From positions 1-34,787 of the forward strand of contig CAIYYW010000022.1 of assembly GCA_903930515.1 (NCBI GenBank): a stretch of 34,787 nt of DNA. Direction: 5' to 3'. The number at the start of each line of letters is the position of its first letter. Position 1 is the stretch's first letter. The notes below the pieces were generated by a model. The model worked only from the letters and a program-made list of their open reading frames with translations, was not told where the DNA came from and made no database searches. Positions 3,197-18,084 of this stretch are shown one piece after another. The DNA is from an uncultured delta proteobacterium. GTDB taxonomy: Bacteria; RBG-13-61-14; DRUE01. A program made the position numbers and the translations under genes.

Positions 3197-4540
3197 ATGC
3201 TGGGAATTGGGAGATGGAAGAGAAGGACGCGGGAGTTGGAGTTGGCTCTGGTCAAGGCCCAGGAATACATCACGGACATCCTGACCTTCCAGGCCGGGGA
3301 AAAGGCTCAGGGCATCAATGCCTCCCCGAATCCCTATGAGAGCCGGGAGAGCCTGGTGGCGGAGCTGGTGCGGAAATACAAGGGCTATGCCCGCTGGGGC
3401 AACCAGTTGATCCAGCGGATCGTTGACACCCGGGCCGCGTTCACCATGGCGGGCGGCCTCAAGGCAACGGTCAAGGCCCCGGGACAAGGACAGCCGGAAC
3501 TTTCCTTCATCCGCGAGTTCCTCGATCTGAACGAATTGGATGGTCAGTTCGGACAGCAGTTGGCGGTGGAGAAGGAACTGGAGGGACAGGTCCTGCTGGC
3601 GCTGGACTGGGACGAGGAGATTGAAAACGCGCGGGTGAAATTTATTTCCTGGAACGACACCCATTACCAGGCGCGGTATCGGGACGATTTATATCACCGG
3701 GTTTCAGGCATTTCCTATTTGGACCCGGACACCAAGGATGAGGTTGAGATCCCGGCGGAGCGGGCAATATTCCTCAAGTTCAACGCCCGGATCAACAGCC
3801 GGGAAGGGGTCCCCACCTTGAGCGGACTGCTGGTGGAGGCTGAGGATATAGACCGGGCGCTCCGGGACTGGCGCAAGCTGAACCAGTATTTCGCCTCTCC
3901 CACTCCCTTTTTCAAAACCAAGGACTTGCAAGAGGCCCGGGAGCTTTACCAGCATCTGTTAAGCCCGGGCATCAACTGGCGGATCGGGAAGGTGTTCGCG
4001 GGACCCGCGGATTTCTCGCTGGTGGAGATGGGGGGAGCCGGGGCGATAAGCATCCGACAGGAGATCGAGACCAAGATCAAAATCCTCGCCGGGGGATCGG
4101 GCGTGCCGGTGCAGTTTTTGGGCTTCCCCGAATTTATGAGCAACCGCGCCACCGCGGAGAACACCATGGAGCCGGTCGCGCTGATTTCAATCAGCGAGCA
4201 GAGGAGCTGGCATCGGGGTTTCCAGGAACTGTTTGACAAGGCGATTGAGTTGAGAAACCAAATGGTCTCTCCGCTGGAACCGGCTTGCCAAACAGGGTTG
4301 GCGGAGCCGATGATGAAGTTCATCACTCAGGCCCAGGTGGACCGCTTGATCCAGCTTTATTACCCGCTCTGGCAAGCCGGCGGGATCAATTTGAAAACCT
4401 TGCTCAGCCTGCTCCCGGACATTGACCCGGAAGTGGAGGCCGGGTTAGGCGGGCCGGACTCGCCTGAAGAATCCGCGGAAAAAGGAGCCAAAGAAATTCC
4501 CGATCCGGAACAGGAGGGAGGCGGCGATGAGAGCGAATAA
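3197..4540 (+). CDS. Phage portal protein
   Basis: A 447-residue protein fitting the portal, the dodecameric ring at the head-tail vertex through which DNA passes. Support comes from its length, from position as the first structural gene before the head protease, and from portal-like stretches: an early helical region, RALRDWRKLNQYFASPTPFF, then a long helical and wing region including GGSGVPVQFLGFP and NRATAENTMEPV, and a loose acidic tail ending GGGDESE. I chose the ATG at 3197 because GGAG lies 8-12 bases upstream; 57 upstream codons back to a TTG at 3026 look non-coding. The stop overlaps the start of a duplicated protease-gene fragment at 4527. No terminase gene precedes it, although terminase and portal are normally adjacent. 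Family assignment is by pattern, not by search. Confidence 0.8.
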   Translation: MLGIGRWKRRTRELELALVKAQEYITDILTFQAGEKAQGINASPNPYESRESLVAELVRKYKGYARWGNQLIQRIVDTRAAFTMAGGLKATVKAPGQGQPELSFIREFLDLNELDGQFGQQLAVEKELEGQVLLALDWDEEIENARVKFISWNDTHYQARYRDDLYHRVSGISYLDPDTKDEVEIPAERAIFLKFNARINSREGVPTLSGLLVEAEDIDRALRDWRKLNQYFASPTPFFKTKDLQEARELYQHLLSPGINWRIGKVFAGPADFSLVEMGGAGAISIRQEIETKIKILAGGSGVPVQFLGFPEFMSNRATAENTMEPVALISISEQRSWHRGFQELFDKAIELRNQMVSPLEPACQTGLAEPMMKFITQAQVDRLIQLYYPLWQAGGINLKTLLSLLPDIDPEVEAGLGGPDSPEESAEKGAKEIPDPEQEGGGDESE

Positions 4541-4546
4541 GCTGGT
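4516..4546 (+). repeat. Direct repeat, left copy, at LamG cassette junction
   Basis: A 31-base stretch spanning the portal stop and a protease-like start. It matches 6230-6260 with a single mismatch (G at 4524, A at 6238). Weaker similarity continues about 15 bases upstream (24 of 29 bases match between 4503-4531 and 6217-6245). It marks the left edge of the inserted cassette. Confidence 0.9.
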
Positions 4547-4586
4547 TCTGAACGCGGTCCGGTCTCGGATCAAGGAGAAATTATAA
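4527..4586 (+). pseudogene. 19-codon leader made from a duplicated protease start
   Basis: This tiny frame begins MRANKLVL, identical to the first eight residues of the head protease at 6241, then departs and stops at 4584-4586. Its start overlaps the portal stop. Its stop overlaps the LamG gene start (TAATG), with AAGGAGAAATTATAATG providing the ribosome site. It looks like a truncated copy of the protease 5' end left by recombination and now joining portal and LamG translation. A functional peptide is unlikely. Confidence 0.7.
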
Positions 4587-6067
4587 TGCGTATTTCAAAT
4601 TATCAGATTTCACCCGATCTCACCCGGCGGAGTTTCGCTATTTCGGGAATGAATACCGGCGAGGCGATTTGGTTGCTGTGGTTCGATGATCAGGGCCAAA
4701 CCTATGATAATTGGATCTATGCCGACTGCATTGTGGACGAAGAAGTAAATCCGGCTTCAAAGGTGATCTTTTTCGCCGCGCTCTACGACGAGGAAATGGT
4801 TCTCCTTGATGCTCAGGCGTTCGGAGAAAGAATTAATTTGAGCCTGATCCAGCCCGCGAGTTCCTGGGCTTTTGACGGTGTGGATTTAGAGCTTGACGGC
4901 GATGTTGGCAACCATACCGGCTGTTGTCGTCTCCGTCCCCGCTCTCTTGAGGCCAATGCCGCCGGCGATTGGCTTTCCGCCTATGTGCCTTTTGATGAGA
5001 CATCAGATCAATCCTACGAGGGAATGTTGCGTTGGCTGGACAAGGCTTATGGTGTGGAGATTGTGGGGGCGCGTAAATGTTTGTCCATTTCACCTTCAAT
5101 TAAATTCGGGAACCACAGCGCAAAAATCAGTGAAGGCCACGGAATGATCCGGTTCCCGCATGATGCCGAGAAATTCACCAACCTTTCGAAATTCACCATT
5201 GATCTCTGGTGGTGCCCCTCGAATTTGACCGGAGTCTATGGAGATATCATGCACTGCGAATGCGACATCAACGGAACAGGTTTTAAGCAATGGAGATTAA
5301 GTCGGGTAAATGCTCAGTTGGCTTTTTGCACCACCAATTCCGGAAATGTGGAAAACCAATTAGGAACCCAGGGTGTCACCCTGGAGGCTGGTCGGGCCTA
5401 CCATATCCGCCTGACTTACGATGGCACATTGACGGACGGTCATTGTTTGGCGACCATCTCGGTGGACGGAGTGAGATATGCCAACGGAACGAGTTGCAAA
5501 AAAATACCGTTGCCGACTTTTTACAATGCTCCGAGTCTGACTTTGGGATCGCGCTATATGAATTACCTCAGCGGAATTGCCGGTTTGGATATGTATCCTG
5601 CGGGTCAGGTATGCGCTGTCAATGACCTGGTGATTTTTCCCGGCGTGAATCTCCCCGCCACCTATGATCCGCCGACCGCTCCGTTTAAGCCCTTTGCCCT
5701 TTTGTCCGAACCCGCGACCATCACCTTTGACGCGGGGATCGCCGGCACTTTTGACAGCTCAACTTTTGCCGTGTCCGATCCGGCTCAATGTAATTCGGTA
5801 GTAGGCGGGCCGGGTTGGGAATTCAGGAGAAGCGTTGATTCTGGAGAGAGCTGGTCGGAGTGGATGACTTATGCAGACATTCAATCCCTGCCGGATGCCT
5901 CTGCCATTACCAGGATCATTTATCAGGCCCGTTGTAATTCCGACGGAGTGAGCTTTTGGTATCCGCTCTCTGAGGCCCGGATAGGTTTTAATCAAACCAT
6001 CCCGCCGATCCCCCTCCACCCCTATGCCGTGGTTCGGCGGGAGCCTGAAATCATTCCGAGATTTTAG
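4586..6067 (+). CDS. LamG/concanavalin-A-like phage surface protein (inserted)
   Basis: A 493-residue protein with no signal peptide. Residues 1-110 form a small beta-rich domain. About 150-370 resemble a LamG/ConA-like jelly roll (FTIDLWWCPS, GRAYHIRLTYDGT, ATISVDGVRY, PSLTLGSRY), a fold that usually binds glycans or adhesive ligands. Residues 380-470 look like another beta domain (GWEFRRSVDSGESWSEW). It is cysteine-rich for a phage protein. Base composition is lower in GC than its neighbours (about 31 of 60 bases at 5101-5160 against 40 of 60 at 6481-6540 by hand count), and it sits between portal and protease, where no such gene is expected. It is flanked by a 31-bp direct repeat, so I infer recent cassette acquisition. 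A role as a head-surface adhesin or displaced tail-fibre protein is a guess. Confidence 0.7.
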   Translation: MRISNYQISPDLTRRSFAISGMNTGEAIWLLWFDDQGQTYDNWIYADCIVDEEVNPASKVIFFAALYDEEMVLLDAQAFGERINLSLIQPASSWAFDGVDLELDGDVGNHTGCCRLRPRSLEANAAGDWLSAYVPFDETSDQSYEGMLRWLDKAYGVEIVGARKCLSISPSIKFGNHSAKISEGHGMIRFPHDAEKFTNLSKFTIDLWWCPSNLTGVYGDIMHCECDINGTGFKQWRLSRVNAQLAFCTTNSGNVENQLGTQGVTLEAGRAYHIRLTYDGTLTDGHCLATISVDGVRYANGTSCKKIPLPTFYNAPSLTLGSRYMNYLSGIAGLDMYPAGQVCAVNDLVIFPGVNLPATYDPPTAPFKPFALLSEPATITFDAGIAGTFDSSTFAVSDPAQCNSVVGGPGWEFRRSVDSGESWSEWMTYADIQSLPDASAITRIIYQARCNSDGVSFWYPLSEARIGFNQTIPPIPLHPYAVVRREPEIIPRF

Positions 6068-6240: not shown

Positions 6241-6260
6241 ATGAGAGCGAATAAGCTGGT
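6230..6260 (+). repeat. Direct repeat, right copy, at LamG cassette junction
   Basis: Right copy of the 31-base repeat at 4516-4546, one mismatch. It covers the ribosome site and first seven codons of the intact protease gene. Confidence 0.9.
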
Positions 6261-7233
6261 ATTGAAAAACGGGGGGATCCAGGAGATGAGCGCGGAGCAG
6301 GTTGAGGAGCTGGTCGGGAAAGACCGCTACGGCTCACTCAAGAAAATCGACCCGCACCCGTTTTTCGCGGAGCTGTTGGTGGCGCACGAGGGGGTGAGCC
6401 GGGGGAAAATTCTCGGCGCGGGTTTGAACCGGCCGGCGGAAAAATTCTGGAGCAAAGACCGGATCCGGGAATTGGTGTCCCGGATCAAGACCGGGCCGGT
6501 CCCGGTTTACCTGTTCCACAACGCGGACAACCGGAGCCGCTCTAAAGTGGGCGAGGTGATCGCGTCGTATTGGCGGAAAGTGAAAGGGGCGTTTTCCGCG
6601 CTCGCGCTCATCTACATCTCGGACCGGAAGGTCCGGGAGATGATCAAGCAGGGCGAACTGGACATTTGCAGCTTGGAGGCGGAACTGGTGTTTGAGAAGA
6701 GGGAAAGCCCGAAGGGGGTCGCGGAATGGGTGGTGAACGCGATTGACCGGGTAAGCGGGCTGGCGCTGGGGTCAAGGGATTCCGCGAGGCCCGGGTTCGC
6801 GGGCGCCGCGGTGCTGGCGCAGGTGGAAGAGTTTGAGGATGACTTGAACGGACCGATCCCGGAGTTGGAGAAGAAGTTGAGCGAAAAGGAACAGGAACTG
6901 AGTCGGCTCAGGACCGAGTTGGAGCGGTATCAATCGGAGCGGGAAAAGCAGGAGCGGAAGCGGAGGGTGGAGGAGTTGGTGGACCGGGTTTTGAAGGATC
7001 GGAGTTTGAAGCAGGAGGAGCAGAAGCATCTGCTCCGGGAGGTGAGCGAGCGGATGGAGCTGAAGAACCCGGCCTCACCGCATCTGGAGCAGGAGGTGAA
7101 AAAGGAAACGGAGCTCTTGCTGGCCAGGCTGGCCGAGCTCAAGCGGGTTTACCAGAAACCGACGGAGATCCGGGCGCCGCTGGAACCGGAAAAAGCGGAG
7201 AGCGGCAATCCCCTGATCCCGCGAGAAGAGTAA
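6241..7233 (+). CDS. Head maturation protease fused to scaffold domain
   Basis: A 330-residue protein. Residues 35-180 have the layout of a herpes/HK97-type prohead serine protease: VPVYLFHN with likely catalytic His93, KVGEVIASYW, GAFSALALIYI, and GELDICSLEAEL with likely nucleophile Ser144. Residues 205-300 are a strongly charged coiled coil (ELEKKLSEKEQELSRLRTEL), the expected scaffold that shapes the procapsid and is then digested. Protease-scaffold fusions of this type are known in Mu-like (gpI) and HK97-like phages, and the next genes (DUF2190-type, then capsid) fit the Mu-like order. The start at 6241 is preceded by GGGAGG. Its 5' end was duplicated at 4527 by the LamG insertion; this copy is intact. 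Confidence 0.78.
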   Translation: MRANKLVLKNGGIQEMSAEQVEELVGKDRYGSLKKIDPHPFFAELLVAHEGVSRGKILGAGLNRPAEKFWSKDRIRELVSRIKTGPVPVYLFHNADNRSRSKVGEVIASYWRKVKGAFSALALIYISDRKVREMIKQGELDICSLEAELVFEKRESPKGVAEWVVNAIDRVSGLALGSRDSARPGFAGAAVLAQVEEFEDDLNGPIPELEKKLSEKEQELSRLRTELERYQSEREKQERKRRVEELVDRVLKDRSLKQEEQKHLLREVSERMELKNPASPHLEQEVKKETELLLARLAELKRVYQKPTEIRAPLEPEKAESGNPLIPREE

Positions 7234-7256
7234 TCAATTTAATAAGGAGGCAAGCA

Positions 7257-7625
7257 ATGGTTCAGGAACAAGGATTGAAACTGCGCACCAAGCTGGAAAG
7301 CGCCAAGACCTTGAAGGCGGCGACCGGCGAGGAAGAGAGTTACAGCGCGGGCGAGATGATCAAGGTTAATGACACGATCGGGATGGTGGTGGAGGATGTG
7401 GAAGCCAATTCCGAATTCGTCCTGCTCTACGAGGCCGAGAAGGTGGTGGCGCCCAAAGCCACCGGAACGGGCATCAGCTTCGCGGTTGGGGACAATGTTT
7501 ATTACGACGCCACGGCCAAGAAGGTCACCAGCGTATCAACCGCGAACACTTTATGCGGCAAGGCGTTGGAATCCGCGGGAGACAGTGATCCCGAGGTCCT
7601 GATTGACCTGATCGTGCTGGCCTGA
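7257..7625 (+). CDS. DUF2190-type capsid decoration/cement protein
   Basis: A 122-residue beta-rich protein with no signal peptide. VNDTIGMVVEDVEANSEFVL, ATGTGISFAVGDNVYYDATAKKVT and CGKALESAGDSDPEVLIDL follow the DUF2190 pattern of small phage head proteins, whose members include capsid decoration proteins. In Mu-like phages a gene of this family lies between protease and major capsid genes, exactly as here. AAGGAGG sits 9 bases before the ATG. Its likely role is stabilising the expanded head; no enzymatic role is indicated. Confidence 0.72.
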   Translation: MVQEQGLKLRTKLESAKTLKAATGEEESYSAGEMIKVNDTIGMVVEDVEANSEFVLLYEAEKVVAPKATGTGISFAVGDNVYYDATAKKVTSVSTANTLCGKALESAGDSDPEVLIDLIVLA

Positions 7626-7650
7626 GCGAAAATACAGGAGGAGGAGAAGA

Positions 7651-8643
7651 ATGATGAGAGATAAAATGATTTCGGAATGGAACAAGGTTGAACTCAAGAC
7701 CGACCCGGGACAGCGCCAGTTCCTGGAAGCGGTGGAGTATTACTTGCGCAAGCCGGCCCTGATCGCGAAGAAGCTCCGGGGCAAAGCCCAGGAGTTCACG
7801 GTTCCGTCGGACTTTCCCCAGAGCGCGGTGGACGCGATTGCCAAGTTCCATCAGGTGGACGCGCCGGACCTGGGCTGGGAGCAGGTGTTTGAGGTGATTG
7901 ATTTCACCCAGACCAAAAAGAACGGGTTTGAAATCCTTGATGTCGGCACCGGCCTTTCTTTCCGCGCGATCAAGCCGGGAGAGAAGGCGGAGGTTTACAA
8001 GATCTCCGGAGAAGTTACCCCGGTCAACTTCGACCTGTTCGGAGGCGCGCTCGGCTGGAGCAAGCTCTGGTTTGACGACCAGGAATACTGGAAGCTGGAG
8101 GACGCGGCGAAGGAATTCCGCGCCAAATGGTACGCGCAGAAGGCCCAGGCGCATTACGACCTGATCAGCGCCTCCCGGCCGGACAGCGATGTGTCCTGGC
8201 AAGGCGGAGTCAACGATTCCAAGGCGGTCCGCGACGCCGAGACCATCAACTGCGCCTGCGCGGAAATCCTCAACGATCTTTCCGGGCTGGGATACGAGGT
8301 CAGCCCGGGCGCGAGCTTGGTGATCGTGGCTCCGGTTCAGCTCTGGGCCAGGCTCCGGAACGCCCTGAACATCACCCTGAGCGATACCGCTTCCAGCCAG
8401 ATCAACTTCAATGTCAGCCTGGCCGTGACCACCCGGCTCAAGAACCAGGCGCTCTCCGGCGCGGACAATTCTCATTACTTCGTCTGTCTGCCCGGCCGCA
8501 AGATCAAGAGCGGACTCCGGATGGACCTTACCATCCTGAGCGAGCCGGACATCCTGGCCTATGCCGAGACCGTGGCCGGTTGGGGAAGATACGGAGCCGC
8601 GATCGGAGAAGCCGAACAGCTCAGAAGGTGCGCCACCGTCTAA
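7651..8643 (+). CDS. Major capsid protein (Mu gpT-like, HK97 fold expected)
   Basis: A 330-residue protein after the decoration protein and before a strong terminator. Residues 45-60 hold an N-terminal arm; 70-130 (GWEQVFEVIDFTQTKKNGFEILDV, FRAIKPGEKAEVYKISGE) resemble the extended-loop region, and 150-320 a helical and beta core with a Trp-rich segment (ALGWSKLWFDDQEYW). Length and position agree with Mu gpT-type capsid proteins; I recognise the family by context and overall pattern rather than a signature motif. The strong GGAGGAGGAG ribosome site directly upstream suits a highly made protein. No N-terminal delta-domain is obvious, consistent with scaffold being supplied by the protease fusion. 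Confidence 0.75.
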   Translation: MMRDKMISEWNKVELKTDPGQRQFLEAVEYYLRKPALIAKKLRGKAQEFTVPSDFPQSAVDAIAKFHQVDAPDLGWEQVFEVIDFTQTKKNGFEILDVGTGLSFRAIKPGEKAEVYKISGEVTPVNFDLFGGALGWSKLWFDDQEYWKLEDAAKEFRAKWYAQKAQAHYDLISASRPDSDVSWQGGVNDSKAVRDAETINCACAEILNDLSGLGYEVSPGASLVIVAPVQLWARLRNALNITLSDTASSQINFNVSLAVTTRLKNQALSGADNSHYFVCLPGRKIKSGLRMDLTILSEPDILAYAETVAGWGRYGAAIGEAEQLRRCATV

Positions 8644-8725: not shown

Positions 8726-8842
8726 ATGGAAAAAAATTTTGTGTTTGTGGACCGGGCTGACGGGGGCAAGTCGCGGGTGACTGTTGAGAGGCCCGCGCGC
8801 GATTTTGAAAATAACTATCCGCGTTTTTCAAAGGAGGAATAA
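8726..8842 (+). CDS. Small phage protein, 38 residues, unknown
   Basis: The frame MEKNFVFVDRADGGKSRV... ends RFSKEE and has GGAGAG upstream of its ATG; its stop overlaps the next start as TAATG. It lies between capsid and DUF1320-type genes, where Mu-like phages often encode one small protein. The sequence is basic and acidic mixed, without membrane segment. It is short enough to be missed by automated gene calling. The function is unknown; a head-tail joining or translation-coupling role is possible. Confidence 0.6.
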   Translation: MEKNFVFVDRADGGKSRVTVERPARDFENNYPRFSKEE

Positions 8843-9594
8843 TGAGCGCGCTTCCGAAATATCGGCAGATGGATTATGCCCGGTTTGACTTTCGGATTTC
8901 CAACGGACTCGGCTCCTACTTGGAGCCGGACTGGGACGATCCGGGCCTGGGGGTGGAGTTTTATGACAGTCAGGGCATCCTGAGATTCACCGCGAACCAA
9001 ACCAGCAGCCCCCCGCTCGTTTCCGGCTCAGACCGACAGGGGATTTTTCTGGCCCTGGAAGGGATCAATCTGGAAAATTTCGCGCTCGGCGTTTGCGACG
9101 CGCGTCTTTCCTGCAGGGTCAACGCCGAGCAGGTCCTGCCCTGCCCCACGGTGATGGAGGCCTTCCAGGTAATCCCGGACAGCGGGACCGAGCCGGTTTA
9201 CACCACGGCCTCCAAGGTCAAAAGCGAATTGCCCGCGGAAATTCCGGCGCAATTAACCGACCCGGTGATTGAGCAATATATCTTTGACGCCAGCCGGAAG
9301 ATTGACGCCGGTCTCTCCGGTCTTTACCCGACGCCGTTTCCGGGCATTGAGCAGAACCCGGCCACGCCCGGCTTGATTGAACGGCTCTGCCGCAAGCTCG
9401 CGCTGTCGGAGAGTTTGATCTTCCTGGGGACCTTGAACCAGATGGAACTGAACCCTTTGCTGGAAGAGCGGGCAATGGCCGAGTTGGACCGGATCCGCAA
9501 AGGCGAACTCCGGATCGCCGGCTTTGAGCCCAACCTCTCGGTTTATCAGGGAATGATCCTGCCGGAAGAAAATACCGGCGATTACCTGGATTGA
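8842..9594 (+). CDS. Head-tail connector, DUF1320 (gp36-like) with extra N-terminal domain
   Basis: A 250-residue protein. The C-terminal half (about 135-245: DPVIEQYIFDASRKIDAGLSG, GLIERLCRKLALSESLIFL, AMAELDRIRKGELRI) matches the DUF1320 pattern of Mu gp36-like proteins, helical adaptors that sit below the portal. Ordinary members are about 140 residues. Here an added 125-residue beta-rich N-terminal domain precedes it (LEPDWDDPGLGVEFYDSQG, GIFLALEGINLENFALGV), which I do not recognise and which may be exposed at the neck. Translation is probably coupled to the 38-aa gene by TAATG. Confidence 0.68.
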   Translation: MSALPKYRQMDYARFDFRISNGLGSYLEPDWDDPGLGVEFYDSQGILRFTANQTSSPPLVSGSDRQGIFLALEGINLENFALGVCDARLSCRVNAEQVLPCPTVMEAFQVIPDSGTEPVYTTASKVKSELPAEIPAQLTDPVIEQYIFDASRKIDAGLSGLYPTPFPGIEQNPATPGLIERLCRKLALSESLIFLGTLNQMELNPLLEERAMAELDRIRKGELRIAGFEPNLSVYQGMILPEENTGDYLD

Positions 9595-9608: not shown

Positions 9609-10136
9609 ATGGTGCTATCGGATGGAGACTATTTAAAGGTCGCGGAGAAAATCGTGGATACGCTCCTTACGGACACCGGCTCCGGGGGATTGCGGGAAGG
9701 GCCGAACCCGCCGGTGAAAACGATTGAGCCGAGGATCCGGCGGGAAGCCAAGCTTTATTCCAAATACGAGCTTCCCCTGATCGGAGTGGAGGTGGCGAAA
9801 AAAAGAGAAGAGCCTTCCCCTTCCAGCCGGATCATTGACAAAGTCTTTGAGCTGGAATTCCTGATCCTCTGCCGGGGAGGAGACCGCGAGCTGGAATCGG
9901 ACCGGGCCAGGAAAATTTCCAGCCGGCTGGAAAAGCTGCTCAAGGAACAGAATCTTCCGGACCGGCAATTCTCCGGCCTGCCCGCGTTGATTGAAGGCTC
10001 CCAGGGAGTGCTGGTCGCCCGGCTGACCGAAACCAATTTTGAAAGCAGGTTTTTTGAAGACGCGGCCGGGAAAAATCCCGAGGTGGTTTCCCTGGTCTCC
10101 GCGGAGGTGATCATCCCGGCGCAATTGTTATTGTGA
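9609..10136 (+). CDS. Tail completion/terminator protein candidate
   Basis: A 175-residue protein between the connector and the tail tube genes, the site of gp37-like (DUF1834) or tail-terminator proteins that cap the tube and dock it to the head. It has an alpha/beta appearance: an N-terminal helix (DGDYLKVAEKIVDTLL), strand-like LPLIGVEVAKK, FELEFLILCRGG, a long helix (ESDRARKISSRLEKLLKEQ) and closing strands (VVSLVSAEVIIPAQLLL), consistent with that fold. AAAAAGGAGTAACCA precedes the ATG. The assignment is mainly from order. The stop codon lies within a perfect palindrome at 10128-10151. Confidence 0.55.
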   Translation: MVLSDGDYLKVAEKIVDTLLTDTGSGGLREGPNPPVKTIEPRIRREAKLYSKYELPLIGVEVAKKREEPSPSSRIIDKVFELEFLILCRGGDRELESDRARKISSRLEKLLKEQNLPDRQFSGLPALIEGSQGVLVARLTETNFESRFFEDAAGKNPEVVSLVSAEVIIPAQLLL

Positions 10137-10194: not shown

Positions 10195-11481
10195 ATGTCC
10201 AAAAACTTTCTGGAAAATATGGGAAAGGTCGCGCTATTCCGGACCCGGGAACAAAACCTGGGAGAGCCGGCGACCGATAATGGGGTGAGTATGGCCTTTG
10301 ATCTCGGCTCCGGGGTCAATCTGGCGAGGACGGTGGAAGACGACCGGGATCAGCTCCGGGGGGTTGACCTGGCCACCCGGTTATATCTCGCCGGGCAGAC
10401 CGCGGGCGGGAAACTGAGCCAGAAGCGGGCCAAGCCGGACTTTCTTACTTTCGCGCTCGGCTGCTTTTTCGGCCAGGTCAACACGGAGCAGGTCGCGGCC
10501 GGGATCTACCAGCACACCATCACTCCTTCCAGCGCCCTGTCTTTGCCCGCGTTCACCCTGCTCCAGCGCCGGGGAGACGCCATTCTCAAGGAAAGGTTTT
10601 CCGGGAACCTGGTGGAGGGGTTCAGTCTGGAGTTGGGAGAAAGCTGGGTGGGCCTGAGCTCGGATCTTCTCGGGATCGGGAAGCGCGAAGTGAATTACCA
10701 AAATGAGATCGTGTCGGCTCCGGCCAATTCCACCCAGATCACCTTGAGCGGGAACGGGGTGGAAGGCGCCACGGCCTCGGAGCGGTTGGAAAATGTGTTC
10801 CGGATCCGGGCCAAGGATGCCGGGTCCAATTTTTGGGAAGTATGCCCGGCGGCGAGCGTGAGCGGAGGCGCCCCGGCCGTGATCACGCTCCAGGAGCCGG
10901 TGGGACAAAGCTCCGACCTGATTGAATTCCACCTTGACTATCTCCCGACCGAGCCGGAGTGGTGCGATTTTCCGGCCGAGCTGGACGAGTCGCCGCTGAA
11001 ACTGGTGGACGCGAATTTGATCGTGGACGGATACTTCACCGGCAGCCAGGTCCAGGGCGGGGAAGTCATCTCCAACGACCTGCTCGGCTTTTCCATCCAG
11101 GGAAAGAACAACCTGGAAATCCGCAAGCTGGCGGACGGGTCGAATAATCCCTGGGCGAGCGAAGCCGCGCGCAGCCAGCGGGAGCTGACCGTCAAGCTCT
11201 CCGAGCGGCTCCGCAACACCATCCGGCAATGGCAGGCCGATCATCCGGAGACCGAGCGGATCAGCCTTTATCTTAAAATCCGCGGCGCGGAAATCGTCCC
11301 CCAAAGCGGATATTATTTCGGCGCGGATTTGATCTTCCCCCAATGCGGAATCCTGAACGATCCGATCTCGGTCAACGGCAAGTTTCTGGCCCAGGAGGGA
11401 GACCTGCTGGTGATGGACGATATAAATTACAACGGCGTTTTCATCCGGACCTGGAACCGGGTGAGCGAATACCTGGGATAA
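10195..11481 (+). CDS. Major tail tube protein
   Basis: A 428-residue protein that fits the tail tube subunit, which stacks as rings around the tape measure. DRDQLRGVDLATRLYLAGQTAGGKLSQKRAKPDFLTFALGCFFG and TLLQRRGDAILKERFSGNLVEGFSLEL resemble the tail-tube family found in siphophages of the B3/D3112 type. A central beta-rich insert (about 175-260, ITLSGNGVEGATASERL, VITLEP-like) may be a surface domain, making it longer than minimal tube proteins of 150-250 residues. Position just before the chaperone pair is canonical. A good ribosome site AGGAGG lies upstream at a somewhat long spacing. Confidence 0.72.
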   Translation: MSKNFLENMGKVALFRTREQNLGEPATDNGVSMAFDLGSGVNLARTVEDDRDQLRGVDLATRLYLAGQTAGGKLSQKRAKPDFLTFALGCFFGQVNTEQVAAGIYQHTITPSSALSLPAFTLLQRRGDAILKERFSGNLVEGFSLELGESWVGLSSDLLGIGKREVNYQNEIVSAPANSTQITLSGNGVEGATASERLENVFRIRAKDAGSNFWEVCPAASVSGGAPAVITLQEPVGQSSDLIEFHLDYLPTEPEWCDFPAELDESPLKLVDANLIVDGYFTGSQVQGGEVISNDLLGFSIQGKNNLEIRKLADGSNNPWASEAARSQRELTVKLSERLRNTIRQWQADHPETERISLYLKIRGAEIVPQSGYYFGADLIFPQCGILNDPISVNGKFLAQEGDLLVMDDINYNGVFIRTWNRVSEYLG

Positions 11482-11491: not shown

Positions 11492-11878
11492 ATGCCGATT
11501 GAACTCAAAGACCAAGAGAGCCTGGCGCTGAACCTGGAAGGACAGGAAATTGAAGTTTATTTCCGCAGCCCGAACGCCCCGGAGATGGTCCGCTATCTCG
11601 CCTCCACCCTTTCCGGCAGCGGCCCGGAGGCAATGGAGCAGATGCTCTCGGCCGGGATCTCGCTCGCCCAATCCTGTCTGCTGGGGATCAAGGAAGGAGA
11701 CATCGTGATTGTGGATCAAGGCCGGGCCAGGGGTTTGGTCACCGACCCGGCTCGGCCCGGATACGATCACAACTGGAAGCAACTGCTGAAAGAGAAAATC
11801 CCGGGCTTGCTCCTGATGCTCGCGAACCGCCTGGTGAAAAACGCGGCATCGGAGTTGGAGGTTCGGGAAAAAAACTGA
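11492..11878 (+). CDS. Tail assembly chaperone, short (gpG-like) form
   Basis: A 128-residue protein between tail tube and tape measure, the position of lambda gpG. It is helical with a strand-rich start (LALNLEGQEIEVYFRSP), MVRYLASTLSGSGPEAMEQML, and a basic C-terminal helix. Such chaperones coat the tape measure during tail assembly and are not in the finished particle. It ends at TGA 11876-11878, directly after an A AAA AAC slippery heptamer, so a fraction of ribosomes should continue into the frame ending at 12174, giving a product of about 227 residues. AAAGGAG lies close before the start. Confidence 0.75.
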   Translation: MPIELKDQESLALNLEGQEIEVYFRSPNAPEMVRYLASTLSGSGPEAMEQMLSAGISLAQSCLLGIKEGDIVIVDQGRARGLVTDPARPGYDHNWKQLLKEKIPGLLLMLANRLVKNAASELEVREKN

Positions 11879-11900
11879 CCCGGGAGCTGGACCGGCTCCT
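11857..11900 (+). promoter_or_regulatory. Programmed -1 ribosomal frameshift signal
   Basis: Three expected parts are present. The heptamer A AAA AAC is at 11869-11875, in phase with zero-frame codons AAA AAC, immediately before the TGA stop. An internal Shine-Dalgarno-like GGAGG lies at 11857-11861, seven bases upstream. A hairpin GGAGC/GCTCC (11883-11887 with 11895-11899, plus an outer G-U) begins about seven bases downstream. This matches the arrangement known from bacterial dnaX and phage tail genes. Confidence 0.88.
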
Positions 11901-12174
11901 TCATCTTGAGCCCGCAGATTGCAGGAGCTGTCCGGAACCAAAGAGCAAATATCAGGAATGGACCTGTGCCCATTGCCCGGAATTCCGGCTGGACCATATC
12001 AGCCCGGGAACCTGGCGCTTGCTGGAAATCCGGAGGCTGAAGCTGGCCGGGTATCCCTTCCGGGCCGACGATCTGAAATATCGCGATTGGCTCTTGCTGG
12101 GAGCGCTGGAAGAAAAGCTGGGGTCGGAGCAAAAGAAGAATGAGCTGGAACTAACCCTGCTGAAAACCATTTAA
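11875..12174 (+). CDS. Tail assembly chaperone extension (gpT-like) by -1 frameshift, zinc-ribbon type
   Basis: After slippage the ribosome reads CTG at 11875 and 99 codons without a stop, to TAA at 12172-12174. The frame has no start codon of its own in a useful place. The peptide begins LTRELDRLLHLEPADC and contains a CX2C-X11-CX2C arrangement (CRSC and CAHC), followed by FRLDHISPGTWRLLEIRRLKLAG and a helical end. The four cysteines suggest a small zinc-binding knuckle; similar short cysteine-bearing extension proteins occur in siphophages. The gpGT-type fusion is expected to bring the tape measure to the tail tube. The open frame of exactly the right length in the exactly right phase makes a sequencing error unlikely. 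Confidence 0.82.
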   Translation: MTRELDRLLHLEPADCRSCPEPKSKYQEWTCAHCPEFRLDHISPGTWRLLEIRRLKLAGYPFRADDLKYRDWLLLGALEEKLGSEQKKNELELTLLKTI

Positions 12175-12203: not shown

Positions 12204-12788
12204 ATGCCTGAATTTGGGAATGAAGCGGGGAACAAAAGCGAGCTGGACCAACTGCGAGCGAATAAACAGGCGGAGTTGGAAATCATCAAACAGGCGGAAG
12301 AGCAGCGGCATCAGTTGGAGCAGCATTTTTCCGAGCTGACCCGCAAGGTCAAGGAGCGGAACCTGGCCTCCGAAATCAATGCCTATCAATCCGCGGCCGG
12401 GTCCGTGGCCAAGTTTTTAGGCGCCGGGATCAAGCAACAGGCGATGATCATGATCCCGTTTGAGATCGCGGAGGCGACCAAGGAGATGGCCGACTTTTTC
12501 GCCACCAAAGACCCCACTCATCTGGCCTCCAGCCTGAAACACTTGCTCGCGGTCAAGCAATACGCGGATGCCGCCAAAACCTCCGCCGGCTCGGGCGCCT
12601 CCGGCTCCGGGGGTTCTTCCACTGCCCCTCCCGCCGAGTCGCCGGAAGACCAGACCAGACACAAAGCCCGGGTGGTCGTTAATGTGGGAGATGGGGTAGT
12701 GATCAATCCCAAAGAATTTGTCCGGCAGTTGGTGGATGGCTTGAACGAGGCCTACCGCGATAATGTCCGGATTGAATTCGCACAATAG
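12204..12788 (+). CDS. Very short tape-measure-like tail protein
   Basis: A 194-residue protein in the tape-measure slot between the chaperone pair and distal-tail gene. Residues 10-65 are a charged coiled coil (ELEIIKQAEEQRHQLEQHF). About 65-120 is a hydrophobic helical stretch (SVAKFLGAGIKQQAMIMIPF), then a Gly/Ser/Pro linker, then a terminal domain (VVVNVGDGVVINPKEFVRQL) typical of tape-measure C-termini as I know them. Tape measures of non-contractile phages usually run 600-1200 residues, at roughly 0.15 nm tail length per residue, so this one would allow a tail tube of only about 30 nm. It may be a minimised tape measure, an internal deletion, or a different tail-core protein. Confidence 0.6.
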   Translation: MPEFGNEAGNKSELDQLRANKQAELEIIKQAEEQRHQLEQHFSELTRKVKERNLASEINAYQSAAGSVAKFLGAGIKQQAMIMIPFEIAEATKEMADFFATKDPTHLASSLKHLLAVKQYADAAKTSAGSGASGSGGSSTAPPAESPEDQTRHKARVVVNVGDGVVINPKEFVRQLVDGLNEAYRDNVRIEFAQ

Positions 12789-12797
12789 GAGTGAAAA

Positions 12798-13550
12798 ATG
12801 ACTCTGAACGCCAAACCGATTTTTATGTGGGACAATTTATTGGCCCGGCCGGACGCGCAACTGAGCGCGACCAGTTCTGACCCGGATCATCCGGTCCAAT
12901 ACCTGGCGGACTGGAGAGAGTATCTGACCTGGCGGGCCGGGTCCGGCGCTCCCCAAAACCTTGAAATATCTTTTCCAGAGCCGAAGCCCGCGTCCGCATT
13001 GTGCATTTACCATCACAACCTCTCCAGCGTGGAGACCGTAACCCTTTCCGGCTCTGCCAACGGTTCGGTTTGGGAGGAAATCCTCAGTCTCAATCCCAAC
13101 TCCGACCAGACCATCCTGAAATTGTTCAACCAGGTTTCTTGCCGATATTACCGGCTGGCAATGGGCTTTTCACCGGCTTGCGAAATCGGTTTGCTCTTCC
13201 TCGGCGATTACCTGGAATTCCCAAGCTGGACCGCGTCCGGCTTTGATCCCAACCAGGAAGAGTTGCTGGTGGAGAAAGGGAAAAGCGAAGAAGGGTTTTT
13301 GCTCGGAGCCGCGCTCCGGTGCCGGAAAAGAAGAATGGCCCTGGACTTCCGATATTTATCCGATTCCTGGGTGCGAAATACTTTGATCCCGTTCTGGAAA
13401 AATCATCCGCCCAAGCCGTTCCTGTTCGCCTGGGACTATCAAAATCATCCGGAGGAAACCTATTTGGTGGAATTGGCGAAGCCGGAGCTGGGCCTACCAT
13501 ATCAGCCGGTTTTTCGGTCATTGAGTTTGGAATTGGAGGGAAGGGTATGA
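12798..13550 (+). CDS. Distal tail protein with discoidin-like domain
   Basis: A 250-residue protein after the tape-measure gene. Residues 25-125 look like a galactose-binding (F5/8 type C, discoidin) jelly roll: QNLEISFPEPKPASALCIY, VETVTLSGSANGSVWEEIL, CRYYRLAMG. Residues 135-250 resemble the distal-tail adaptor (Dit or DUF2460-like) that closes the tube: LEFPSWTASGFDP, RMALDFRYLSDSWVRNTLIPFW, PVFRSLSLELEGRV. Together they suggest a baseplate ring with a sugar- or surface-binding domain. GGAG lies 9 bases before the ATG. Its stop overlaps a 25-codon mini-frame at 13547 as ATGA. The domain reading is by pattern only. Confidence 0.62.
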   Translation: MTLNAKPIFMWDNLLARPDAQLSATSSDPDHPVQYLADWREYLTWRAGSGAPQNLEISFPEPKPASALCIYHHNLSSVETVTLSGSANGSVWEEILSLNPNSDQTILKLFNQVSCRYYRLAMGFSPACEIGLLFLGDYLEFPSWTASGFDPNQEELLVEKGKSEEGFLLGAALRCRKRRMALDFRYLSDSWVRNTLIPFWKNHPPKPFLFAWDYQNHPEETYLVELAKPELGLPYQPVFRSLSLELEGRV

Positions 13551-13624
13551 AGTTGAAGATTGGGAATTGGGGAATTCTCCGATTCCTAACCCCTACTCCC
13601 CAACTCCCGGAGGTGAAGCGATGA
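13547..13624 (+). CDS. Possible 25-residue coupled mini-gene
   Basis: The frame MKLKIGNWGILRFLTPTPQL... starts in an ATGA overlap with the distal-tail stop and ends in an ATGA overlap with the tail-hub start. It contains an imperfect hairpin, GGGAATTGGGG (13562-13572) with CCCCAACTCCC (13598-13608), and GGAGG at 13609-13613 for the hub gene. It may be a translated linker keeping ribosomes coupled, or filler sequence that happens to be open. Confidence 0.35.
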   Translation: MKLKIGNWGILRFLTPTPQLPEVKR

Positions 13625-15882
13625 GTTTTGAGAATTATAGAGACGCTCTGAGCCGCAAGCCGGTCTGGCTGGTCAAGCTGCATCTGGACCAATGCGCGAA
13701 TATTTTCCAGCTCGCTCCTTGCGCGGCGACCGGCGCTTCTGTTTGTTATTACACTTACAGCACCTGCCGGGATCGCGAGCATTACTGCAAGGCGGATTCC
13801 ATTTTGAAATTGAGCAGTTGCGATTTTCAGCCCAGGTGGCTCGGGCCGAGCCCGCTCCCGCTTCTGGAAAAAGTCGGGTATGTGCCGATTGAGATTGACG
13901 CGAAATGCAACCTGGCCCGGCGGGGAGAGATGGTCCTGGAGCTTTCGGACGATCCTCCTCATTATTACGCGAACCCGTCCAAGGTTTACGGCGGACTGAC
14001 GATCAGCAACCTGGAAACCGCGGGCAGTTTCTGGAAAAATTTATTGGCGAGGAATCCCAATTACTATCACCGCCTGGCGGAAGTGTATCTCGGGTTTGAG
14101 GGATTGGAGGAGTCGGAGTTCCGGCTCTTTTTCCGGGGACTGATTGAAAAAATAGAATACCGGGAGTTCGGGGTCGCGGTCACGGTCAAGGATTTGCTCA
14201 AGAACCTGGACCGGCTGAGCCATCCCAAAGCGGGCGACAATTGCAAGCTGTCCCAGGATTATTCGGGGGGAGCTACGGTCAAGGTATATCAGGGAGATCA
14301 GCTTTCCGATTGGGGGATCATCAAATCCGAGGGCGGCAACCATATCAAGTTTTCCGGCAAGACCGGCCCGGACCCCCAGGGAATCTGGACCCTCCAGGAT
14401 GCCGCCTTTTGCTTCGGCGGTTCCGGCACCGTCCCCACCGGAAAAATGGTCAAGCAGGGGTTGGTTTACGCCCGGGACAATAACAGTATTGATGAGGGGT
14501 TTTCCGCGGACTGGATCCTGCTGGACTTGATTTGCGAGCGAGCCCGGATCAGCGCGGACTACCTGGAACTGGTGGATGTTGGCGCAACTTTAGGTTCAGG
14601 AATTGCCGCCGACGCAACCTCCATCCCGGTGAGCGACGCGAAATTATTCCCGGACCAGGGCGTGATCAAAATTGATAATGAACTGATCATCTACAAAGGC
14701 AAAAACGGAAACAACCTGGTGATTCAAGGGACCGGCGCGGGGGATTCCGTGCCGCTCTTTTACCAACACTTCCGCGGGGCGTTCCGAACCACCGCGGCTT
14801 CGCACGATTCCGGCGCCCCAATTTATCTCCCCCGGATCACCTATGAGGCGATGACCTGGCTGGGGGGCACTCGCTACCGGGCCGAGTTGGAGGAGCCGAC
14901 CAAGGTCCAGGAACTGTTGAACCGGATTTGCGAGCAGGCCCTGATTCAATGCTGGCAAAACGAGGAGTCCAACATAGAATTCCGCGCCATCTGCCCGCCT
15001 CAGCCGGGCGAGGCGATCAAGGAACTGAACGACCAGGAGCATCTGCTTGAGCAATCGGTATCGGTCCTGGACGACCGCGAACTGCAATCCAGCCGGGTGA
15101 TCGTTTATTACAAGCCCCTGGAGGCCGACCCGGGAGCGAAGCCCAAGGGTTATCAATGCGCGCTGGTGGAAGTGGAAGAAGATATTGAAAATGAAAACTG
15201 GTTGGGCGAGGAGAAGCCGAAAATATTTTTCGCCGACTGGATTTACCGGTCCACCGAAGCAGTGTCTCTCGCGAGCAGGTATTTGTTGAAATATAAGGAA
15301 GGCGCGCGCCAGCTCAAGTTCAGCCTGGAGTTGAAAGACCTGGACCTGGAAGTGGGAAAACTCTTCTGGGTCAAGACCGGCAAGATTCTGAATGAGCGGG
15401 GAGAGAAAAGCCGGCTCCTGTTCCAGGCGCTTAAAAAGCAGTTCCGCTCGGCGGGAAGAATTGAGATTCTGGCCCTGGAGACCAAGCTGGACCTGATCTA
15501 CGCATATATCGGACCGGAAAACCCGGTTTTGAGCGAGACCATCAGCTCCGGAGAAACCACGATCCAGCTTGCGCTTACCGCCAATACCTACCAGGACGAT
15601 GATTTCGCAAGCAGCGGCCAGATCCGGATTGAGGACGAGAAAATCAGTTATGCGAGCAAGGGCTACGACAGCCAGACCCAGGTGCTGACTTTATCCGGAT
15701 GCGACCGCGGCATCCTGGGAACTTCGCCGGTTGAACATAATGCCGGGGTGGACGCTTTGCTTCTTGATTATGGCGCGAGCCGGCCGGCCCAAGATAAATC
15801 GGCCTGGAACAGCGATGAAAATAATCTGCTGGATTCAGATGGAGACGGAGTTGGAGATCGGGAAGGATATTATATTTATTGA
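13621..15882 (+). CDS. Tail hub/baseplate protein (DUF2163/BR0599-like)
   Basis: A 753-residue protein at the hub position of gene-transfer-agent-like and B3-like tails. The N-terminal 70 residues hold six cysteines (25, 34, 42, 49, 56, 67; FQLAPCAATG, YYTYSTCRDREHYC), reminiscent of cysteine-bearing hub proteins such as that of the Rhodobacter capsulatus gene transfer agent, for which an iron-sulfur cluster has been reported as I recall. The middle has repeated beta modules: two stretches (about 320-370 and 640-700: FPDQGVIKIDNELIIYKG and SSGQIRIEDEKISYASKG) are alike. The C-terminus ends with DSDGDGVGD, a calcium-binding loop as in thrombospondin type 3 or EF-hand-like repeats. I chose the ATG at 13621 for its adjacent GGAGGTG; an in-frame start 18 codons upstream lies in a linker. 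Confidence 0.66.
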   Translation: MSFENYRDALSRKPVWLVKLHLDQCANIFQLAPCAATGASVCYYTYSTCRDREHYCKADSILKLSSCDFQPRWLGPSPLPLLEKVGYVPIEIDAKCNLARRGEMVLELSDDPPHYYANPSKVYGGLTISNLETAGSFWKNLLARNPNYYHRLAEVYLGFEGLEESEFRLFFRGLIEKIEYREFGVAVTVKDLLKNLDRLSHPKAGDNCKLSQDYSGGATVKVYQGDQLSDWGIIKSEGGNHIKFSGKTGPDPQGIWTLQDAAFCFGGSGTVPTGKMVKQGLVYARDNNSIDEGFSADWILLDLICERARISADYLELVDVGATLGSGIAADATSIPVSDAKLFPDQGVIKIDNELIIYKGKNGNNLVIQGTGAGDSVPLFYQHFRGAFRTTAASHDSGAPIYLPRITYEAMTWLGGTRYRAELEEPTKVQELLNRICEQALIQCWQNEESNIEFRAICPPQPGEAIKELNDQEHLLEQSVSVLDDRELQSSRVIVYYKPLEADPGAKPKGYQCALVEVEEDIENENWLGEEKPKIFFADWIYRSTEAVSLASRYLLKYKEGARQLKFSLELKDLDLEVGKLFWVKTGKILNERGEKSRLLFQALKKQFRSAGRIEILALETKLDLIYAYIGPENPVLSETISSGETTIQLALTANTYQDDDFASSGQIRIEDEKISYASKGYDSQTQVLTLSGCDRGILGTSPVEHNAGVDALLLDYGASRPAQDKSAWNSDENNLLDSDGDGVGDREGYYIY

Positions 15883-15892
15883 GCGCAGACCG

Positions 15893-15925: not shown

Positions 15926-15944
15926 TGCGGCACAGGAGGGATAG

Positions 15945-16430
15945 ATGAGCTGGCAAGAAATCGGAATCGGAGAAGTGGACGCGAACAGTCCGGTGAGCAC
16001 GACTTTGATGGGCAAGCTAAGGAATAATCTCTATTGGATTTTTCAACAGTTTTCAAAAGCCACCCTGTTTGACAACACCGACCGGAGCGCGCCCTCCGGC
16101 GGAGAGATTCTCCAGGAATCCGACACCTGGCAAACCATTGAAACCATCAAGGTTTACGCCCCGGACTTTGTCCAATCCATCAAGGCGCGGGTTCGGGCGA
16201 AAATCACCGCGGGATCGGACCGGCAGATGCGCGTGCGCGAGCCTTCCAGCGGGAACAACAGCGATGTTCACACCTTCGCCGGAACTGATTACGAGGAATT
16301 GACCGTGACCCTGAGCAATCCGGACGCGGGGTTGATTGACCTGAATCTCCAGGCCAAGGCGACCTTCAACTCGGGCAATCCGATTTGCCTTGTCCATTGG
16401 GCATTGATCCGCGCCGACGAGGCCAAGTGA
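15945..16430 (+). CDS. Small tail tip or fibre-associated protein, unknown
   Basis: A 161-residue soluble protein with no signal peptide. The start MSWQEIGIGEVDANSPVSTTLMGKLRNNLYWIF resembles N-termini of phage tail proteins that attach to the baseplate (a DA-NSPV-TTLM-LRNN pattern I associate with tail fibre genes). The remainder is beta-rich (IKVYAPDFVQSIKARVRAKI, YEELTVTLSN, IDLNLQAKATFNSG), perhaps a short receptor-binding or knob domain. AGGAGG precedes the ATG. If this is the only fibre gene at the normal place, the LamG protein gene at 4586 may supply the missing long binding domain. Confidence 0.5.
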   Translation: MSWQEIGIGEVDANSPVSTTLMGKLRNNLYWIFQQFSKATLFDNTDRSAPSGGEILQESDTWQTIETIKVYAPDFVQSIKARVRAKITAGSDRQMRVREPSSGNNSDVHTFAGTDYEELTVTLSNPDAGLIDLNLQAKATFNSGNPICLVHWALIRADEAK

Positions 16431-16437
16431 GGGAAAA

Positions 16438-16698
16438 ATGGAAACGGTCTGGATAAATATCTTAAATATCTTTTTCACCGGAGCCCTTGCCGTGCTCGGC
16501 CTGCTCTGGCGGGAAATGAACAAAAAGGTCAGCCACATGGTCAGCCGCGAGCTGTGCCAGGAGCGCAGCGATTGGATCACGCAGCAATTGGAACACCAGG
16601 AGCAGATCCTGCTCCGCACCGAGCAGCGGCTGATCCGGATTGAGAAAAAAATGGCGTATCAAAACGGGGAGGCGGGAAATGAGTTTGATCATTATTGA
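16438..16698 (+). CDS. Small membrane protein with coiled coil, lysis-module type
   Basis: An 86-residue protein with one membrane segment at about 4-24 (WINILNIFFTGALAVLGLLW) and a charged coiled-coil tail (ERSDWITQQLEHQEQILLRTEQRLIRIEKK). Small phage proteins of this shape are found next to endolysin genes, for example XhlA-like hemolysins or holin partners, though XhlA has the membrane helix at the other end. Its 3' end overlaps the amidase start by 20 bases, so the two are probably translated together. Confidence 0.5.
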   Translation: METVWINILNIFFTGALAVLGLLWREMNKKVSHMVSRELCQERSDWITQQLEHQEQILLRTEQRLIRIEKKMAYQNGEAGNEFDHY

Positions 16699-17215
16699 TC
16701 CCGGACACGGCGGAGCCGACCCGGGCGCGGTTGCCAACGGGCTTCTGGAAAAGGACCTGAACCTTGGGATCAGTCTCAAGCTGAAAGAGCTGTTAACCGG
16801 AAGCGGCATCCCCGTACGGCTCACCCGGGAATCGGATCAGGATTTGAGCCTGGAGGCCAGATGTGACACAGCTAACAATTGGCCGGCCGACCTGTTCCTC
16901 AGCGTCCATTGCAACGGCTCTCCCGACCCGCTGGCCCAGGGCCTGGAGATTTTTTGCCATCCCGGAAGCGCGCCCGGGACCCGGCTCGCCCGGGCGATCC
17001 ACCAGGAGCTGCTCCAACTCGGCCGGCGGGATCGGGGGATCAAGACCGCTGAATTCTATGTGCTCAAACATACCCGGAGGCCCGCGGTGTTGGCGGAATG
17101 CGGCTTTATCACCAATCCCGGCGAAGCCGATTGGCTTAAATCCCATCTTGCCGAAATGGCCGGGGCTTTGATGCGCGGGATCAAGAAAGGTCTCTCCGCG
17201 GAACCCTTAAATTAA
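16679..17215 (+). CDS. N-acetylmuramoyl-L-alanine amidase (endolysin)
   Basis: A 178-residue Amidase_3 domain that cuts the bond between MurNAc and the peptide stem of peptidoglycan. Zinc ligands are visible in order: His10 (IIDPGHGG), Glu24 (GLLEKDLN), His77 (FLSVHCN); the catalytic Glu140 is in VLAECGFITNPGE. The protein is the bare catalytic domain without signal peptide or wall-binding module, as expected for an endolysin that relies on a holin, unlike host AmiC, which is exported. The ATG at 16679 gives the standard first strand MSLIIIDPGHGG; upstream codons back to 16640 overlap the previous gene. The holin-like gene follows by 19 bases. Confidence 0.92.
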   Translation: MSLIIIDPGHGGADPGAVANGLLEKDLNLGISLKLKELLTGSGIPVRLTRESDQDLSLEARCDTANNWPADLFLSVHCNGSPDPLAQGLEIFCHPGSAPGTRLARAIHQELLQLGRRDRGIKTAEFYVLKHTRRPAVLAECGFITNPGEADWLKSHLAEMAGALMRGIKKGLSAEPLN

Positions 17216-17234
17216 CCGCAATTCGGAGGCGCTT

Positions 17235-17468
17235 ATGGATCACTGGCTTTTTACCAAGGAGGGGGTTCCTTCCAAAACCGCGTTCTGGTTCTCCTGCACC
17301 ATGCTGGTCACTTTGCTTCTTGTAATCTGTATTACAATCAGGTTTTTGATCGCGCCCGGGCCGGAGCTGGCTGGCGGGCTCCCGGGCATCGCCATGGTGC
17401 TGGGGATCCCGAACGCGATCCTGGCCGGGGCTTATACTTGGGGGAAAAAAATTGATCAGCAAAATTAA
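17235..17468 (+). CDS. Holin-like small membrane protein
   Basis: A 77-residue protein with two hydrophobic segments (about 16-40, FWFSCTMLVTLLLVICITI, and 48-68, GIAMVLGIPNAILAGAYTW) and a charged end KKIDQQN. Size, topology and placement right after the amidase fit a class II holin that would make membrane holes and release the endolysin. GGAGG lies 7 bases before the ATG. The last 17 bases overlap the next gene. Holins have little sequence signature, so this rests on context. Confidence 0.6.
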   Translation: MDHWLFTKEGVPSKTAFWFSCTMLVTLLLVICITIRFLIAPGPELAGGLPGIAMVLGIPNAILAGAYTWGKKIDQQN

Positions 17469-18084
17469 AATCGGAACCGGGATCGCCCTGATCCTGGCTT
17501 TGGCGGCTTTGATCGGAATCTGCTCCTGGCAGCGGAGGCAAAACTCCGCGCTGGTCCGGGAGCAAAACCAAATCCTGGGCCAGTTGCGCCTAAGCCGGCT
17601 GAAGGACAAAATCGCCCAAGCGCCGGCGCAGGAACATAAAAATCTTTCCGCAAAACCGGGGGCGGCCAGGCGAAATCCATTTGAGCCTTGTCCCGACCCT
17701 TGCCAGGTTTGTTTCCAGGACTATCAATATCAACTGGAGGTCAAAGATGAAGCGGGAAGATGGATTTTCAAGGATGAGAATGTTTTTGATGATCAGCCGG
17801 GGAACCTTGCCTTGACCGATAAATTCTGGGAAGAGCTTGAGGGCGCGCAGGCATCAAAGCCAAGCTCTAAAGCAGACCGGTCGGACAAGCTTGCGAGGAC
17901 CAAAAACCGGATCCTGGTCGGCTTTGAGCTGGATCAGGCCAAAGTTGAATACGGCTATTCGCCCCTGGGAATCAAGACCAGTCGGATGGAACTGAACCTC
18001 GCACTCTATTCCTCGCTTTCAATGAGCTATGCTTATCAGCCGCTGGAAGCCCGGGCCGGGGCAGGGATGGAAATAAGATTTTGA
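17452..18084 (+). CDS. Membrane-anchored lysis-module protein, spanin-like candidate
   Basis: A 210-residue protein starting at TTG (GGGGGAAAAAAATTG), overlapping the holin-like gene by 17 bases. One membrane helix at 8-25 (GTGIALILALAALIGICSW) is followed by a helical stretch (SALVREQNQILGQLRLSRLK), a cysteine cluster (CPDPCQVC) and a beta-rich end (VEYGYSPLGIK, RMELNLALYSSLSMSYAYQP) finishing with MEIRF. The N-terminal anchor plus periplasmic helix next to a holin is compatible with an inner-membrane spanin; the C-terminal strands ending in Phe are not usual for one. I do not recognise the family. It is the last gene of the phage cluster, and its stop lies 14 bases from a convergent host gene. 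Confidence 0.45.
   Translation: MISKIKIGTGIALILALAALIGICSWQRRQNSALVREQNQILGQLRLSRLKDKIAQAPAQEHKNLSAKPGAARRNPFEPCPDPCQVCFQDYQYQLEVKDEAGRWIFKDENVFDDQPGNLALTDKFWEELEGAQASKPSSKADRSDKLARTKNRILVGFELDQAKVEYGYSPLGIKTSRMELNLALYSSLSMSYAYQPLEARAGAGMEIRF

Follow-up and report, generated by a model that had tools for sequence, protein, structure and literature searches.

A probable split-locus, gene-transfer-agent-like particle in the uncultured bacterial phylum RBG-13-61-14

The head-tail-lysis cluster

The window, by which we mean the whole 34,787-nucleotide stretch analysed here, is an entire contig (G000:C22) of a 3.65-Mb metagenome-assembled genome (MAG; 93% complete, 401 contigs) from the phylum RBG-13-61-14. 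Between positions 3197 and 18084, it carries a 14.9-kb head-tail-lysis cluster with host genes on either side: etfA and a membrane protein to the left, and GT4, plsB and, farther on, aroB and hemB to the right. About 19 rightward, near-overlapping genes, mostly with good ribosome-binding sites, lead from the ATG of the portal gene at 3197 to a stop at 18084. Scanned against Pfam and PHROGs, the open reading frames (ORFs) of the cluster matched structural or lysis proteins, or else nothing convincing. The assignments of the portal, tube and tape measure lean on gene position. The two related genomes named in the following list are a congener (G001) and a member of another family of the same order (G002).

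2897..3104, + strand: control region upstream of the portal gene, with two palindrome-like boxes (2906-2920 and 2973-2987) and a promoter-like motif, GTTACGATTTTCCTATTTATAGGGGG, at 3075-3100
3197..4540, + strand: portal protein, 447 aa (Portal_Mu, E 8.5e-4, below cut-off; position; 78%/68% identical in G001/G002)
4586..6067, + strand: LamG/concanavalin-like structural or decoration protein (Pfam Laminin_G_3; position in relatives)
6241..7233, + strand: scaffold/maturation-type head protein (position, coiled coil, PHROG 24820; kept in relatives)
7257..7625, + strand: head cement/decoration protein (PF09956, E 2e-12; phrog_122)
7651..8643, + strand: major capsid protein, MCP (position; 81%/71% identity in G001/G002; 31% to a Microcystis phage protein whose gene adjoins a cement gene)
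8726..8842, + strand: small ORF, 38 aa (open frame between the MCP and adaptor genes)
8842..9594, + strand: Gp36-like head-tail adaptor (PF07030, E 9e-5, below cut-off; phrog_195)
9609..10136, + strand: probable tail completion/terminator protein (position; conserved)
10195..11481, + strand: probable tail tube/major tail protein, 428 aa (phrog_290, minor tail protein, E 1.6e-5; 71%/57% in G001/G002)
11492..12174, + strand: tail assembly chaperones G and G-T, joined by a -1 frameshift (slippery site A_AAA_AAC at 11869-11875)
12204..12788, + strand: candidate tape-measure protein, 194 aa, very short (position between the chaperone and tail-tip genes; conserved)
12798..13550, + strand: probable distal tail protein (phrog_11633, function unknown, E 5e-21; position)
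13621..15882, + strand: tail hub/fibre-type protein, about 750 aa (phrog_11439, tail fiber, E 4e-44; weak phage matches)
15945..16430, + strand: tail or appendage protein, 161 aa (by position only)
16438..16698, + strand: small membrane-anchored protein, 86 aa (sequence; homologues in G001 and G002)
16679..17215, + strand: N-acetylmuramoyl-L-alanine amidase, the endolysin (Amidase_3, E 1e-51; phrog_435)
17235..17468, + strand: holin-like small membrane protein (hydrophobic stretches; 82% in G001)
17452..18084, + strand: last gene, for a spanin/Rz-like or outer-membrane-type protein (N-terminal membrane anchor; conserved in G001 and G002)

The Pfam and PHROG scans recognised no terminase, integrase, transposase, repressor or replication protein in positions 3197-18084, and no immunity or toxin gene among the cluster ORFs. 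This confirms the first part of an earlier sequence-only reading of this DNA, which had described a head-tail-lysis cluster between host genes, devoid of terminase, integrase, replication and repressor genes. The locus thus does not have the make-up of an intact prophage, in which terminase, integrase, replication and control genes would accompany the structural genes. In its base composition, the cluster resembles the flanking host genes (GC 56.7 versus 56.5%, GC3 71 versus 73%), and codon usage correlates between the two at r = 0.94.

The T part of the tail assembly chaperones carries a CxxC...CxxC motif. The slippery site reads A_AAA_AAC in the window genome and the congener, and G002 has a run of A there. 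All three genomes preserve the A run, the stop and the downstream frame. The candidate tape measure, assigned by position, has only 194 residues, which would imply a short tail. An AlphaFold prediction for the MCP from three sequences reached a pLDDT of 38; it did not confirm the fold, and the result was left unused.

Conservation and inheritance in relatives

The comparison set for the phylum comprises three genomes, all of them MAGs: the window genome (G000); its congener G001, a fragmented MAG from Alinen sediment (CAIUDS01); and G002, RBG_13_61_14 (MGQK01). All three have a single copy of the portal gene. They also have the MCP gene, which was absent from every more distant genome that was searched. 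In both relatives, the cluster is intact and nearly collinear with that of the window. The one change in order concerns the LamG gene, which follows the MCP gene in the relatives and precedes the scaffold gene in the window. A glycosyltransferase-like gene between the MCP and LamG genes occurs in the G002 cluster only (L007:10573-11289, - strand).

The last cluster genes of the congener (C214:2-1622) are followed by about 2.8 kb with a few small genes and then by the right-hand host block of the window (25603-30963), which encodes an unnamed protein, a PHP-domain protein, a rhomboid protein, 3-dehydroquinate synthase (aroB) and ALAD (hemB). With its end next to the same host block in G001, the cluster is thus found in one and the same chromosomal neighbourhood in the two congeners. 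The small genes 3' of the congener's cluster (L030:1640-3763), which include one for an aspartyl-protease-like protein, are absent there in the window. Only in the window genome is GT4-plsB (window 18099-21948) interposed between the cluster and aroB-hemB, and the congener's plsB is on another contig. The equivalent cluster of G002 has the same gene set and is likewise bounded by host genes, with flanks that differ from those of the window (a hydrolase and DAHP synthase).

Between the two congeners, dN/dS calculated by NG86 ranges from 0.12 to 0.29 for the cluster genes and from 0.11 to 0.29 for five host neighbours, with comparable dS that is near or above 1 in most genes and saturated or nearly so in many. 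Protein identity is 52-82% within the cluster and 61-80% for the same five neighbours. For G002, the sole housekeeping baseline measured is plsB, with 38-40% identity. The pattern of the cluster is one of long vertical inheritance under purifying selection and not of decay. Vertical inheritance is shown within the genus; three taxa are too few for a test of tree congruence.

Synteny in related genomes and dN/dS had been proposed in the sequence-only reading for telling a deleted prophage from a domesticated particle, and both speak against the former. A prophage that had undergone deletion, caught before frameshifts arose, would leave a locus of this kind, stripped of integrase, terminase, repressor and replication genes. 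However, the single-copy gene set is intact and open-framed in the congener and in another family, purifying selection between the congeners equals that on host genes, and both the programmed frameshift and the orthologues of the terminase described below are conserved. A decayed prophage was rejected on this comparison with relatives, and we give it a very slim chance.

A terminase at a second locus

The sequence-only reading had proposed a search of the rest of the genome for a lone TerL. One was found on another contig of the window genome (G000:C400:3991-5400, 469 aa), which rules out that a terminase is absent altogether. The protein matches PHROG 38 (E 2e-99) and also Terminase_6C, the initial Pfam match having been weak, and contains, in order, the motifs GHGKST, LIILDD, IGIDLA, VCVES and HDDLFDA (Walker A/B-like and RNaseH-like). 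It is the only TerL that two Pfam models recovered in this genome; a weak Pfam TerL match on contig C15 lies in an ORF beside an acyl-CoA-dehydrogenase-like gene. Ahead of terL lie genes for a ParB-like protein and, in divergent orientation, an SPL-type radical-SAM protein with an HTH, as well as a methyltransferase-like ORF. Its contig, 5.7 kb in length, was assigned to the genome by binning, a placement supported by the conservation of the module with the same neighbours in the relatives.

Orthologues are present on C729 of G001, where the contig ends within the gene, and on C80 of G002, where runs of N can explain an apparent break. They share 45-64% identity where aligned and keep the ParB and radical-SAM neighbours. 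In all three genomes, the TerL module forms a second locus, which is either unlinked to the head-tail cluster or separated from it by host genes. The latter is the case in G002, where both lie on one scaffold on opposite strands, about 10.7 kb apart from the portal to the ParB of the TerL module, with genes for AIR synthase (purM), a DHOD electron-transfer-type (pyrK-like) protein and hydrolases in between.

The interval between ParB and TerL in G001 holds a second ParB gene, a PAPS-reductase-like gene and further genes. Orthologues of these two lie on a different contig of G002, C81 (64% and 75-79%), and a PAPS homologue was not found in G000. SPL-type radical-SAM proteins, one type of which has an N-terminal HTH, are encoded beside the TerL modules (L021:1411-2628, - strand; L022:5241-6527, + strand; L008:3887-5155, - strand). 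Two other TerL genes of G002, on C1 (L012, 883-2223, - strand) and C61 (L015, 1279-2718, + strand), ranked higher in the Pfam search, yet they are not orthologues of the TerL of the window genome. Their presence means that G002 probably harbours ordinary prophages as well.

A motif shared by the two loci

In the window genome and the congener, the portal gene is preceded by a motif around GTWACRATTTTCCTATATATAGGGGG, and a relative of this motif is found on the TerL contig of the window genome. The 20-bp version of G002, AAAACTGCAACATTTTTCCA, has exactly two perfect sites in that genome, identical to each other: one begins 39 bases before the portal start, and the other lies ahead of the TerL module. 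Sites with one mismatch include the locus of the second ParB and PAPS-reductase-like genes. As a control, the motif pattern read backwards gave zero matches. Because further intergenic copies of the motif are numerous (8 in G000, 18 in G001 and about 37 in G002), co-regulation of the cluster and TerL is something we infer.

Phage relatives

Sequences related to the cluster are scarce among known phages. Among the 50,697 phage records of INPHARED, the portal and tube proteins have no relative and the MCP has one, a remote one with 31% identity. Pattern scans of IMG/VR with the MCP, tube and TerL revealed no relative; these used exact short peptide patterns, which can miss distant relatives. PDB sequence searches with the MCP and tube gave nothing useful. 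The one relative, Microcystis phage MACPNOA1, resembles the cluster in its adjacent cement and MCP genes (about 31% identity), but nothing else in it matches convincingly, and the tape measure annotated in this phage has about 1437 aa against 194 aa for the candidate here.

The sequence-only reading had also proposed a Mu-like head order and B3/D3112- or GTA-like tail genes. For the head, weak profile matches of the portal (Portal_Mu) and the head-tail adaptor (Gp36) lend this some support, and the Mu-like SuMu phage is among the TerL matches, at about 30% identity. However, the two profile matches fall below the Pfam cut-offs, the cluster lacks a transposase and Mu early genes, and the dearth of phage relatives of the portal, tube and MCP leaves the proposed kinship weakly supported.

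These searches also bear on whether the loci are part of a phage or satellite that is still mobile and whose genome is split in an unusual way, or stem from independent infections of three hosts by one phage family. Three genomes are few, the cluster sits elsewhere in G002, and other contigs of that genome carry the two additional TerL genes, all of which would fit with mobility. Yet both congeners hold the cluster in the same neighbourhood, its divergence and composition are host-like, TerL is split from the structural genes in each of the three genomes, and the phage collections yielded only the single remote MCP relative, with none for the MCP, tube or TerL patterns in IMG/VR. We therefore regard continued mobility or repeated infection as highly improbable.

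A probable domesticated particle

Gene transfer agents (GTAs) have been defined by six features: particle proteins derived from caudoviricetes, a content of mostly random host DNA, full endogenisation, often at multiple loci, an own genome that is not fully packageable, vertical inheritance with co-diversification with the host, and delivery of DNA to other cells (PMC9662315). The present system, known from its genes alone, displays three of them, namely caudoviricete-derived proteins (seen in the profile matches of the cement, head-tail adaptor, tail protein, endolysin and TerL), endogenisation over multiple loci and vertical inheritance.

The two loci probably encode a domesticated tailed-phage particle of phylum RBG-13-61-14 that is vertically inherited, GTA-like and split between loci. 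This was the other branch of the sequence-only reading, and it is strengthened by the conservation of the cluster and by the TerL elsewhere in the genome; gene transfer itself is proposed by analogy. The main locus (3197-18084) would make the head, the short tail and the lysis proteins, and the second locus, probably switched on with it via the common control sequence, would provide a packaging motor composed of TerL and its ParB-like partner. Given the lack of replication, integration and repressor genes and the unlinked motor gene, the particle should not propagate its own genes. Fragments of host DNA would most likely be packaged by a headful mechanism, and the particles would be released by lysis, as in GTAs. 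By analogy with known GTAs, the best-supported use of the particles is the transfer of this DNA to kin.

The main rival, which we consider unlikely, is a domesticated particle of the PBSX kind that packages host DNA and serves killing or lysis, with no gene transfer. Such a particle would have the same genomic signature, being intact, vertically kept and without replication genes; the cluster provides head, tail and lysis genes alike, and the two uses are indistinguishable from sequence. However, known PBSX loci are single loci with their own regulators, whereas the motor is unlinked in the present system, and the cluster has no recognised immunity or toxin gene.

Judged by its published description, the closest working analogue of the proposed GTA-like particle is BhGTA/VSH-1 of Brachyspira (Brachygtaviriformidae). 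BhGTA has a structural cluster of about 16 kb with an endolysin, a single identifiable terL that lies outside the cluster and is conserved with the host, and structural genes with almost no phage relatives (PMC9662315). The present system shares the similar-sized cluster with an endolysin, the outside terL and the near-absence of phage relatives for the structural genes. It differs in the host phylum and in its conserved gene order, which is not conserved among Brachyspira species, and BhGTA is experimentally proven. The cluster of RcGTA, the GTA of Rhodobacter capsulatus (Rhodogtaviriformidae), is also similar in size, but it includes TerL (g2), which lies outside the main cluster here. Further likenesses to RcGTA are the make-up of the head-tail cluster, the vertical inheritance, the extra loci and a small short-tailed particle, the last predicted here from the genes (PMC9662315).

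A literature search found no report of a GTA for phylum RBG-13-61-14, and few GTAs are known outside Alphaproteobacteria (PMC12946183). According to a 2024 review, new GTAs cannot yet be definitively located from sequence alone (PMC11841831). The present case would be an independent GTA lineage in an uncultured phylum, its terminase set apart in the manner of Brachyspira. Judging from this case, unlinking the motor from the structural genes may be a recurring step in the taming of phages, since an unlinked motor gene helps keep the particle from favouring its own genes. By analogy, these bacteria may use what looks like a tamed virus for exchanging their own DNA. Further cases could be sought by the combination of an intact head-tail cluster lacking a terminase, a conserved lone TerL and a common upstream motif.

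Dispersed copies of the control sequence

In the window genome, homology between the copies of the motif spans about 200 bp. At most of the other sites examined, the motif is followed by multi-copy sequence that contains no recognisable gene, is apparently non-coding and breaks assemblies. The motif may mark a regulon that includes the particle genes or a dispersed repeat that supplied their promoters. A bolder and improbable proposal is that of a new, independently domesticated GTA lineage, both loci of which belong to a set of elements scattered over the genome and carrying the same control sequence. The remaining members of this set would act for the particle as multi-copy non-coding RNAs or DNA sites, perhaps in its regulation or in starting packaging around the chromosome.

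The copies of G000 and G001 that were tested have no match in Rfam. A strict pattern of the palindrome-like boxes of the window is absent at other loci, and degenerate boxes align at the same place in other copies of the window genome. The control-like sequence of about 200 bp occurs at 2897-3104 of the window, on contigs C199, C262, C269, C302 and C359 of G000, and on many contigs of G001 and G002 (L033-L052, L071-L090). A segment UUCUUUUnCnnCAAUGUUC, together with a hairpin, recurs in the copies of both G000 and G001.
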